From: Polyangium fumosum | Lineage (GTDB): Bacteria; Myxococcota_A; Polyangia; Polyangiales; Polyangiaceae | Length of the DNA: 38,272 nt | Direction of reading: 5' to 3' | Assembly (NCBI RefSeq): GCF_005144585.1 | Contig: NZ_SSMQ01000071.1 | Coordinates: 1-38,272, forward strand | Shown here: one piece after another, positions 22,882 through 25,714 of the stretch | Numbering within the stretch: the stretch's first letter is position 1 | Layout of the letters: the number at the start of each line of letters is the position of its first letter | Position numbers and translations under genes: made by a program | Notes under the pieces: generated by a model | Databases searched by the model: none | Told to the model about the DNA's origin: nothing | Seen by the model: the letters and a program-made list of their open reading frames with translations, nothing else

Positions 22882-23907
22882 CTACCCCGCCGCGCGCCTC
22901 TCTCCCAGGCCCGGCTCGTGTTGTTCCACGGGCAATCCCGCAATCTCGCGAAGCACGAGCGGAAAAAAGCTCTCGTTATCCATCGCCCCCGGCGCGCTGC
23001 CCGGATAGCGGCGCTCGATCGAGCGCTTTCCCCGCATCGGATCGATCCTGCGGATCACGACCGTCCCGCCCTTCACGTCGATCTCGTCCACCTCGATCGC
23101 GCTCCACCGTTCCACACGTTCGCCGTCGAAAAGCTCAATGAATCCGAGCCCTATCCGCGCGCGCCTCGAAGGGTCCCGTGCATCGCGCCCGATCTCGATC
23201 GCGCCGTGTGCTTCCACATCCTCTCGCGCCTTTCGAAGGAGCCAGTCGTTCCAGGCTCGCTCGGCCGCCACGGCGAAAAGATACGGTTGGTGCTCCAGCT
23301 TCACCCCCACGCTCGGTTTTTCCCCGTCGTAATGACCGTGGATCCGGAACGCCGCGCCGACGCTCCGGCGCCCCATCCAGCGCAGGTCGAATTCGACGCG
23401 GCTCGTCTCGCCTTTTGGGCGGGTGCGCACGGTCTTTACCAGGGCGCGCGCGTCCTCGAAGCGGAGCACCACGCGCGGCAGCGGATCCCCCCACGTGTAC
23501 TGCGCGAGCCCGTCCTTGCCGACGTACGTGCACAACGCGGTCGGGCCATTCACCTTCCACGCGATCGGCGCCGCGAACCAGGCCCCCGCGGCGGCCGCGA
23601 TCACGGCGAGCGCGCCTGCGATCGACTCCGTCCACGGAGAGCCGAGGCCGAACGTCTGCCGCAGCAGCCATACCAGGATGCCGATGGGCACGAACGAGAC
23701 CAAGCCCACGGCGACCGCGGCGAGCCCCGCGAGCACGGACGTCCGCGCGACGCGCAGCGAGAGCGTCACCGGCTTCTCGCCGGCCTGCACCGTACTTCCG
23801 ACCGAACGTACGTCCCCGATTTCCGGCGGAGGCAAGGCGAACACCCGCATCCCGTCGGCCAGACGATCCCCTGCGTGTGACGTCGCCAAAGGCGCGATCC
23901 GTGTCAT
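22882..23907 (-). CDS. Membrane protein of unknown function with two helices
   Basis: The 341-residue protein has two adjacent membrane helices (about 55-82, SVLAGLAAVAVGLVSFVPIG; and about 95-118, AGALAVIAAAAGAWFAAPIAW) and a soluble C-terminal region of about 220 residues rich in beta-strand patterns (ALCTYVGKDGLAQYTWGD, RFEDARALVKTVRTRP, GFIELFDGERVERWSAIEVD). The layout suggests a cytoplasmic PH-like or beta domain anchored by a hairpin, but I do not recognise a family. ATG 23907 is preceded by GCGGGACGGC, a weak ribosome site. It is divergent from the small protein gene at 24006 across 98 bp and upstream of the PAS-STAS gene on the same strand (69 bp). Confidence 0.75.
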   Translation of the reverse strand: MTRIAPLATSHAGDRLADGMRVFALPPPEIGDVRSVGSTVQAGEKPVTLSLRVARTSVLAGLAAVAVGLVSFVPIGILVWLLRQTFGLGSPWTESIAGALAVIAAAAGAWFAAPIAWKVNGPTALCTYVGKDGLAQYTWGDPLPRVVLRFEDARALVKTVRTRPKGETSRVEFDLRWMGRRSVGAAFRIHGHYDGEKPSVGVKLEHQPYLFAVAAERAWNDWLLRKAREDVEAHGAIEIGRDARDPSRRARIGLGFIELFDGERVERWSAIEVDEIDVKGGTVVIRRIDPMRGKRSIERRYPGSAPGAMDNESFFPLVLREIAGLPVEQHEPGLGERRAAG

Positions 23908-24005
23908 GCCGTCCCGCAGGCGAGGATACCCTCCCCCGCCGCGTTTCGCGAGCCCGTCCTCTTCGGCCTTTGCTTCGCGAGCCTCCCGGATTACGCTCTC
24001 GCCGC

Positions 24006-24596
24006 GTGTCGGGCCCTCAGAGATCCTTCAGCGCGGAGCGTATCGGCGCGTGGGCGTACGCGAATGGCTTCACGTGGAGCCCTTTCCCCGGGGAGAGCTG
24101 GTTCCGCCCGTGGGAGCCACACGACAACATCGCGCCCCCGGGCCAGTACCTCCACGCGGTCACGCGCCATACGCCGCACGGCCCGTACGTGCTCGTCGAG
24201 CCCTGGTACGCCACGGATCTCGACACCGAGCCGCTCGAACGAACCGTCTTCGCGTACGCGACGCACCCGCGCCTCGTGCGCCGCGCGGCCATGCGGGTCG
24301 GCGAGCACTTCGTCACGCGCGTCGCTTACCTCGAAAGCGCGCCGCCGCCGAAGGTCGAGATCGGGGACAAACTCTGGGATGAGCACGTCACGACGTTCGC
24401 CGTCTCGCCCGCCGAGGCCGCCGCCGCGTTCCCTTCGCGCTTGCGCTCCATGCTCGCGAGCTGGGGGTTTCAGGGCCACCTGGAGATGCGCCCCGGCGGC
24501 CTCGTGATGTTCATGGCGGGCCTGCGCCCCGTGCCCGAGCATTACCAGCGCTTGCTCGGCGCGACGCGCGAGGTGCTGCACGCGGCCGTGGGTTAA
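24006..24596 (+). CDS. Conserved-looking small protein, unknown function
   Basis: The 196-residue soluble protein begins at GTG 24006 (VSGPQRSFSAERIGAWAYAN). It is rich in aromatic residues early on (WSPFPGESWFRPWEPHDNI) and has no signal peptide or membrane helix. Coding is supported by strong GC bias at third positions and by convergence with the beta-barrel gene. The open frame extends far upstream, but that part overlaps the opposite gene at 22882-23907 and is taken as its shadow. Its stop codon lies in the left end of the MITE-like element. No family recognised. Confidence 0.65.
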   Translation: MSGPQRSFSAERIGAWAYANGFTWSPFPGESWFRPWEPHDNIAPPGQYLHAVTRHTPHGPYVLVEPWYATDLDTEPLERTVFAYATHPRLVRRAAMRVGEHFVTRVAYLESAPPPKVEIGDKLWDEHVTTFAVSPAEAAAAFPSRLRSMLASWGFQGHLEMRPGGLVMFMAGLRPVPEHYQRLLGATREVLHAAVG

Positions 24597-24722
24597 CAGC
24601 CTGTGGACTTATCTGCTGCGCGCCCCGAATCGTCGGTCGACATCACTCGAAATCCTTGAGGATTCCTCGCTCCGTCGCCCTAGCTTCGGGGCGCTCGCGA
24701 CGATAATTCCACAGGCTGTTAA
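24593..24722. mobile_element. MITE-like element between overlapping stop codons
   Basis: The ends TTAACAGCCTGTGGA (24593-24607) and TCCACAGGCTGTTAA (24708-24722) are a perfect 15-bp inverted repeat. Complementarity continues further in (TTATC / GATAA and GCGCCCCGAA / TTCGGGGCGC), giving imperfect arms of about 37 bases, and the centre has a small AATCC-TTGA-GGATT hairpin. If TA is the duplicated target (24594-24595 and 24720-24721), the element is 24596-24719, 124 bp, with no coding capacity: features expected of a MITE of the Tc1/IS630 type. A structured bidirectional terminator is the alternative. The inserted DNA leaves both flanking stop codons intact. Confidence 0.65.
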
Positions 24723-25714
24723 AAGACGAACGGCACGTCGATCTGCACGATCTTGTACTCGAGGCCGCCCGAGGAGAATCCCGTCGGCAGATCGAGGCCC
24801 ATCGTCAGGGAGACACCGGGACGTAGCCACATCTTGTCGTTCAGCTTGAAGTGCCCGCGGGGGCCGAAGCCGAGCGTCCAGTTGTCGATCCGCGTGGGAT
24901 CCGGGCCCTTCTCGATCGTCCCGTTCGAGACCCACAACTGGTAACGCAGCTCGGTGCCGAACGAGAGCTGCGGAAGGACGAACCAGCCGAAATGCAGGCC
25001 CGCCGTGAGGTTCGTCCGCGCCGCGTCCTTGTCGAGCGTGGCGCCCCGCACGCGGAGGAGCTGGAGGAGCGTCACCTCGGCCTGCAGCGTGATCCCGTTC
25101 GCGATGTAGCCGATGCCCGCGCCGACGATCGGGGTCATGTAGTTGATCTGGAAGAGCGCGTTGTCCATCGAGGCGCGCGCATAAATCCCGTCGAGGTTCG
25201 CCGTGCGGGTCGCCGCGTCGGGTTTGTCGCCACCGCCCGTGCCCACGGGGATCGTCGTGGCCGCGAAGAGGCCCACTTTCCACGACTCGCCGAGCGGAAT
25301 CGAGTAAAGCGCGCCGATCGCGGGGTTGATGAACGACGTGGCCTTCGTGCCCTCGGGCCCCTGCGTCTCGCTGTGGATCATGCCGAGCCGCACGATGGCC
25401 GCGAGGTTCGGCAGGATCTTGTAGCTCCCGAGCAGGAGCACCGGGACCGTGGTCTTTGTCGTCGAGAACGCGAGCGTCGTGTCGAGACGAACCACGTTCC
25501 CCGCGGTCAGGGGCCGAAGCATGAAGGGCAAGGAGTACGGCGCCGGCGTCTTTTTCGCCGGCGCGGCCTCGGGCGTGGCCTCGGGCGCAGCGGGCGGCGC
25601 CTCCGCCGGGGCGTTTTCCGCGCGCGCCGGAAGGACAGCCGAAAGGCCGCCGAAGGCAAATCCTAACGCAACGAAACGTGATGCCTTTCGACGAACCCCA
25701 ATTGCGTTTTTCAC
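24719..25714 (-). CDS. Outer-membrane beta-barrel protein candidate
   Basis: The 331-residue protein begins at GTG 25714 with a signal peptide (ASRFVALGFAFGGLSAVLPARA), then an Ala/Pro/Glu linker. From residue 60 it shows alternating amphipathic strands with aromatic ends: NVVRLDTTLAFSTTKTTVPV, LGSYKILPNLAAIVRLGMI, GIGYIANGITLQAEVTLLQL, TNLTAGLHFGWFVLPQLSFG, ELRYQLWVSNG, GPRGHFKLNDKMWLRPGVSL. The last residues IVQIDVPFVF end in Phe, the usual outer-membrane barrel signature recognised by the BAM complex. It resembles uncharacterised porin or transporter-like barrels; substrate unknown. Its TAA stop lies in the right end of the MITE-like element and converges on the gene ending at 24596. Confidence 0.85.
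   Translation of the reverse strand: MKNAIGVRRKASRFVALGFAFGGLSAVLPARAENAPAEAPPAAPEATPEAAPAKKTPAPYSLPFMLRPLTAGNVVRLDTTLAFSTTKTTVPVLLLGSYKILPNLAAIVRLGMIHSETQGPEGTKATSFINPAIGALYSIPLGESWKVGLFAATTIPVGTGGGDKPDAATRTANLDGIYARASMDNALFQINYMTPIVGAGIGYIANGITLQAEVTLLQLLRVRGATLDKDAARTNLTAGLHFGWFVLPQLSFGTELRYQLWVSNGTIEKGPDPTRIDNWTLGFGPRGHFKLNDKMWLRPGVSLTMGLDLPTGFSSGGLEYKIVQIDVPFVF

Follow-up and report, generated by a model that had tools for sequence, protein, structure and literature searches.

Families of MITEs are usually recognized by their ends, and their interiors drift. Ypal elements reportedly lie near stop codons, as De Gregorio et al. are said to have noted in 2006. Small mobile repeats of bacteria, Ypal among them, are treated in parts of two accounts (PMC2229807 and PMC2759123); in the portion of the former that concerns Ypal, these elements are without a terminal TA, carry internal inverted repeats, and are flanked by duplications of 3 to 26 bp. 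CGTC REPs are without a dedicated transposase according to the section of PMC3733652 that deals with them, and its authors consider there that these repeats might be mobilized by transposases of many different kinds. The duplication that IS5 makes at its target is given as YTAR in the relevant passage of PMC10359306. In the open-access literature, searched by titles and the starts of abstracts, we found neither the element described below nor end swapping around a conserved core.

A MITE in the overlapping stop codons of two convergent genes

The window, i.e., the whole 38,272-nucleotide stretch analyzed here, is contig 169 of the 12.98-Mb genome of Polyangium fumosum (G000, the own genome in what follows). 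Between two of its convergent genes lies an inverted repeat (24593-24722), which we confirmed to be real. Its arms (24593-24613 and 24702-24722) are 21 nt long and 95% complementary, and the folding z-score of the hairpin is -7.3 on one strand and -9.9 on the other, with 0 of 200 shuffles folding as well in either case. The locus comprises the following features.

24597..24718, plus strand: MITE body, 122 bp, delimited by its copies and by empty orthologous sites
24593..24596: left copy of the target-site duplication, TTAA (YTAR), holding the TAA stop of the plus-strand gene
24719..24722: right copy of the target-site duplication, TTAA, holding the stop of the minus-strand gene (TTA on the plus strand)
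24597..24613, plus strand: left terminal inverted repeat, CAGCCTGTGGACTTATC, 17 bp, identical to the left end of a 1.53-kb IS of the same-genus genome G004
24702..24718, minus strand: right terminal inverted repeat, CAGCCTGTGGAATTATC, 17 bp, one mismatch relative to the left repeat
24615..24703, plus strand: conserved hairpin core, common to elements with other ends; match of core model R2
23178..24596, plus strand: plus-strand gene (longest ORF, start codon provisional), ending in the duplication
24719..25714, minus strand: minus-strand gene, ending in the duplication

The plus-strand gene, which has no Pfam match at an E value of ≤0.001, stops with TAA at 24594-24596. The minus-strand gene, with a weak outer-membrane beta-barrel match under the Pfam cut-off, also stops with TAA, read as TTA at 24719-24721 on the plus strand. 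Each stop thus lies inside one of the two TTAA copies. The own genome contains 15 copies of the element at ≥93% identity, the window copy included, as well as fragments.

We compared the locus with orthologous sites in five same-genus genomes. Three sites are empty and keep both stops, reading GGCTAAAAG in G004, GGGCTAAAAA in G003, and GGGCTAGAAC in G001. The fourth, in G005, is occupied by a diverged copy that is inverted relative to the element of the window; the fifth, in G002, holds a different insertion of ~344 bp. The latter (L108, on contig C55) is GC-rich, has several hairpins, and sits at the same convergent stop between orthologues of the flanking genes. Codons read by eye place the stop of the plus-strand gene, be it TAA, TAG, or TGA, at one and the same position throughout the six genomes. 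Because the closest orthologue, that of G004 (flanks 96 and 98% identical), is empty, the insertion in the window looks recent; with both G003 and G004 empty, the G005 copy would most simply be an independent insertion.

The element is therefore short, non-coding, and multi-copy, with terminal inverted repeats, a target-site duplication, and empty orthologous sites, as expected of a bacterial MITE. An initial annotation, made from the letters of the window, had proposed a MITE-like insertion in overlapping convergent stops that damaged neither protein. The multi-copy ends, the IS with the same left end, and the empty sites with both stops preserved support this proposal. The same annotation held that a single copy at an always-occupied locus would indicate a terminator, and the search it suggested for the ends and the empty site returned the 15 copies and three unoccupied orthologues instead. 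Its predicted empty site, GGGTTAAAAG, was right in outline when compared with the sites of the relatives; the duplication is 4 bp long, however, so that the body spans 24597-24718.

A likely autonomous partner in a same-genus genome

Six copies of an element of ~1.53 kb in G004 start with CAGCCTGTGGACTTATC, i.e., the 17-bp left end of the MITE, and end with CAGCCCGTGGATCTACG. This IS encodes an intact 483-aa protein with DUF772 and DDE_Tnp_1. The transposase is closest to the IS1182 model and next to that of IS5, and it scores under both curated cut-offs (176.7 bits against 270 for the IS1182 family, NF033551; 104 bits against 140 for IS5 [IS5_4], NF033581). Relatives of the IS are present in five of the seven genomes searched, the own genome having only three pieces at contig ends. 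Among 12 IS copies from three genomes, eight have an equal YTAR on both sides, as described for IS5, and four (L075, L190, L195, and L213) have one or both outer bases unequal.

The match between the MITE and the IS copies is confined to the ends, about 20 bp; both arms of the MITE resemble the left end of the IS, and the right end of the IS differs. The full-length transposase element that the initial annotation recommended looking for was thus found with the same left end but with a diverged right end. Judging from this identical 17-bp end, the 1.53-kb IS is likely the autonomous partner of the MITE.

A conserved core with different ends

The inner ~88 bp of the MITE are common to elements with more than a dozen different inverted-repeat ends. 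We refer to the window-type ends as F1; three other end types are as follows.

F2: AAGTGGTCTCATAAAC, duplication CTAG
F3: CAGGCTGTYGATAAAC, duplication YTAR
F4: GAGGGTGTTCCACAGGC, duplication TNA (3 bp), a common type

Further end types occur in a Byssovorax MAG, Sorangium, Minicystis, and additional genera. At least four end types are found in the own genome, with cores 76 to 86% identical to that of the window. With filters tightened to allow for the number of genomes, hits to the core model were obtained in 46 of the 183 Polyangiales genomes (30 of the 111 better assemblies and 24 of 83 genera). Our catalogue of elements has 131 entries, 125 of them full-length. Among 68 genome stretches found with the core pattern, 57 have a full core, two (L126 and L176) have a weak or partial one, and nine have none. 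One of these nine, L151, retains F4 ends and represents a deletion derivative; the others (L136, L137, L138, L148, L159, L164, L170, and L175) were taken as chance matches, and a core-pattern match in one viral contig was likewise judged by eye to be due to chance.

Core and arms differ in how well they are conserved. Between end types, mean identity is 0.75 in the core and 0.39 and 0.35 in the two arms (303 pairs from 27 of the 32 rows of alignment A2, five F3 variants being left out), compared with 0.93 in the core and 0.79 and 0.78 in the arms within end types (48 pairs). The extreme case is Sorangium versus Minicystis (arms 0.13, core 0.89), and types 1 and 2 of Byssovorax are poorly distinct (arms 0.60, core 0.91). 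These block identities replaced a single-linkage clustering of arms, in which F1 to F4 were chained into one group of 120 of 136 elements beside 13 other groups. The two arms of an element match each other: they pair well (score of ≥20) in 127 of 136 full cores, with a mean score of 28.8 versus 14.0 for pairing with the arm of another element and 9.4 for shuffled arms.

We assessed the folding of the core in 32 diverse cores, for which a structure of 23 pairs is standard in 95.9% of cells. There are 89 cells with double changes, versus 29.4 (0 of 500) for shuffles; covariation is 0.324 versus 0.113 in shuffles and is lost when the partner is slid. The structure was derived from the alignment on which it was tested, which works in its favor. 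Two of five measures are not above shuffles, namely, pairs with a double change (10 versus 8.9; 136 of 500) and further pair types (16 versus 17.9; 480 of 500). The loops hardly vary: they read CGTCGGTCG and CTCCCTAGC, with G sometimes replacing the A of the latter and with CGCCCTAGC in F1 elements. Such stems and loops are what one would expect if selection acted on a folded RNA or on single-strand DNA; a mutational origin, through template switching in hairpins, is an alternative. Rfam 15 gave one match in the window (24000-25300; E value of 0.97, below the gathering score) and two microRNA models among 12 other loci, both below the gathering score. In one copy of the own genome (L082, contig C11, near 2892-2938), the right end runs past the shared stem into the left half of the core, which is a hairpin rearrangement.

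A partial search for autonomous masters of the F2, F3, and F4 types found none. The exact F2 end pattern occurs, among six genomes, in the four F2 MITEs of the own genome only, and one additional F2 copy with mismatches is present in G004. Lone F3 ends proved to be partial or core-less forms, apart from a single full copy and a stretch of 88 bp common to L214 and L218. This stretch, 93% identical between the two loci, has an F3-like start and then departs from the core; it may represent one end of an as yet unseen F3 master. Lone F4 ends, one search for which left out G002, comprise deletion derivatives (L305, L309, L311, and L312) and single ends (L306, L307, L308, and L310). Two of the derivatives are without the core tip, and two, from G001, consist of the ends with a few bases between them. 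The single ends have no mutual similarity inside the end at an E value of ≤1e-3, which speaks against one common IS there. No match to any of five known end patterns, with up to one mismatch allowed, was found around the DUF772 transposases of G001 and two of those of G005. At L231 (G001) and, more weakly, at L236, candidate inverted ends that start with CTAGAGCG, again with CTAG at the edge, enclose a DUF772 transposase gene.

Target-site duplications and placement at stop codons

The bases flanking the elements agree more often than expected by chance. Across 35 F1 copies with parsable ends, from the own and same-genus genomes, the flanking 4-mers are equal in 21 (shuffle mean of 11.2; reached by 0 of 10,000 shuffles) and unequal in 14. 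They are equal in 12 of 34 F3 copies (shuffle mean of 5.8; p = 0.0003), and the flanking 3-mers (TNA) are equal in 11 of 19 F4 copies (shuffle mean of 7.3; p = 0.008). F1 copies besides that of the window duplicate CTAA, TTAG, or CTAG, and TTAA is also among the equal pairs; as all four are seen in this way, we read the duplication as YTAR. If CTAG/CTAG pairs are left out, equal 4-mers remain in only 7 of 21 F1 and 4 of 26 F3 copies, the F1 figure implying that many sites have decayed or that the outer bases are loosely kept. One copy of the own genome (L003, contig C140) is flanked on both sides by a direct repeat of ~20 bp, ggcgtggattgaacggtta.

Because YTAR reads as TAR on the plus and on the minus strand, it can hold a stop triplet in both directions. 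We counted how often the target is the stop of a gene, using only copies in which both ends match the end patterns, with flanks joined by script and genes called by a codon model built in-house and trained on 62 long ORFs. Where the two copies of a duplication differed, the class nearer a stop was taken. Exclusions amounted to 3 of 35 F1 copies (decayed), 18 of 34 F3 copies (12 with short flanks and 6 decayed), 1 of 19 F4 copies (short), and none of 5 F2 copies. The background for YTAR consisted of 259 sites in the window and in 68 loci, most but not all of the loci being from Polyangium; 56 of these sites are gene stops.

The target is a gene stop in 21 of 32 F1 copies (Fisher p = 3.4e-6 for stops versus other non-coding sites), and shared convergent stops account for 9 of the 32, versus 3 of 259 background sites (Fisher p = 1.3e-7). 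Against the same background, 4 of 5 F2 copies and 13 of 16 F3 copies, 3 of the latter at shared stops, are likewise at gene stops. Of 18 F4 copies, 16 are on a stop, 1 is inside a gene, and 1 is elsewhere, compared with 278 stops, 5,890 positions inside genes, and 3,077 others among 9,245 background TSA sites. Merging copies with shared flanks (71 copies into 66 groups) leaves the excess at stops significant for F1 and F3, with F1 at shared stops in 8 of 30 (p = 7e-7). In other genera, a gene stop coincides with an element end in 9 of 23 copies (8 left, 1 right) versus 40 of 4,600 random positions; this count left out L288, which repeats the F4 copy L157. F1 elements are oriented to genes equally in both directions (16 left, 16 right), so a sense orientation is not required. 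Two F4 copies, L172 in G002 and L264 in G004, have flanks and stop in common and the element in opposite orientations, reflecting either in-place inversion via the end repeats or repeated insertion; the situation parallels that of the window and G005 copies.

The surviving copies are thus concentrated at gene ends, through target choice, selection, or both. The IS copies show a weaker bias, with 4 of 12 at a stop and one inside a gene, and this suggests that the bias of the MITEs may stem from selection rather than targeting.

Proposed mechanism and alternative explanations

We consider it very probable that the MITE is mobilized in trans by an IS1182/IS5-type DDE transposase that would recognize its CAGCCTGTGGA... 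ends and insert it into YTAR with a 4-bp duplication. Since YTAR holds TAR on both strands, insertion at a stop would leave that stop intact, the duplication rebuilding it, and overlapping convergent stops would both survive. Other accounts of the locus fit less well. The position between convergent genes and the strong fold on both strands would suit an old, native bidirectional terminator without any insertion, and the initial annotation had envisaged that the hairpin could terminate both transcripts. However, the element is multi-copy with duplications, three of five same-genus orthologues, the closest included, are empty, and a scan of both strands over 24400-24900 found no T-run after the hairpin; classical termination is accordingly not supported, and we regard a native terminator as extremely improbable. 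The duplication might instead be the TA dinucleotide only, as the initial annotation had assumed and as in IS630/Tc1-like elements, with the outer Y and R being variable ends. TA is indeed the center of the target, and the outer bases are unequal in 4 of 12 IS copies and in many MITE copies. Yet in F1 and F3 the outer bases agree above shuffles and do so as several different 4-mers, and the partner transposase, with DUF772 and DDE_Tnp_1, is of the IS5/IS1182 kind, and IS5 duplicates YTAR according to PMC10359306; a TA-only duplication is therefore very unlikely, and TTAA (YTAR) takes its place. We give hardly any credence to the idea that the element is a REP/RAYT-type repeat mobilized by a tyrosine transposase. 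Like REPs, the element is palindromic, high-copy, and often at gene ends, and its core contains CGTC and CTAG strings, but the REPs described in part of PMC3733652 are hairpins of 20 to 40 bp with GTAG or CGTC tags and CGTC stems of 8 to 9 bp, as opposed to a 122-bp element with IS-like ends, short fixed duplications, and a likely DDE transposase partner.

The history of the core allows several readings. The core looks like a modular passenger carried by different transposases: the ~88-bp inner hairpin, itself conserved, would have acquired its various ends from different transposons, and we infer both the swapping of ends and some reason for the core to be retained. Alternatively, the ends may never have been swapped, a single ancestral element having had ends that tracked diverging transposases around a constrained core. 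That some end types grade together (the F3 variants; Byssovorax types 1 and 2) and that nearly all full cores examined (127 of 136) have their own well-pairing arms would agree with such a descent. It is harder to reconcile with arms that are so much less alike than cores between types, most of all in Sorangium and Minicystis, with duplications of different lengths (YTAR versus TNA), which point to different transposases, and with the presence of at least four end types in the single genome G000. Descent without swapping is possible, but we are inclined to doubt it. With similar reserve, we raise the possibility that the core is a conserved module of Polyangiales, either a structured RNA or single-strand DNA that folds. 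This module would ride on unrelated transposon ends and, being placed at stops, come to lie at the 3′ end of host messages; selection would keep the module and not the transposon end.

Comparison with known systems

In the present elements, it is the ends that vary, whereas the interior has been conserved throughout an order, which is the reverse of the usual MITE pattern. If the passenger reading is true, a non-coding sequence has outlived its transposases. The YTAR and TNA targets suggest a low-harm colonization of gene-dense genomes, because a stop codon can serve as the target (with YTAR, on both strands) and is rebuilt on insertion.

Ypal/RU-2 of Yersinia are likewise palindromic mobile repeats, of ~168 bp, with target duplications, as the pertinent part of PMC2229807 describes them; the present elements, in contrast to Ypal, have duplications of 4 bp (YTAR) or 3 bp (TNA), and these are often the stop codon itself. 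Correia/NEMIS, RUP, and ERIC-type MITEs resemble the present elements in being small and non-coding, with IS-like ends, terminal TA, and duplications, but an order-wide core with unrelated ends is not described for them in that part of PMC2229807. REPs of the GTAG and CGTC super-families are also palindromic and mostly downstream of genes; they are much shorter, and the section of PMC3733652 concerned with them does not describe IS ends or fixed duplications. The closest counterparts are IS1182/IS5-type ISs with their MITEs, given DUF772 and DDE_Tnp_1 in the partner, the YTAR duplication, and the 17-bp left end in common. The present system differs from these in that the transposase scores under both family cut-offs and in that the interior of the MITE is unmatched in the IS and recurs with other ends.
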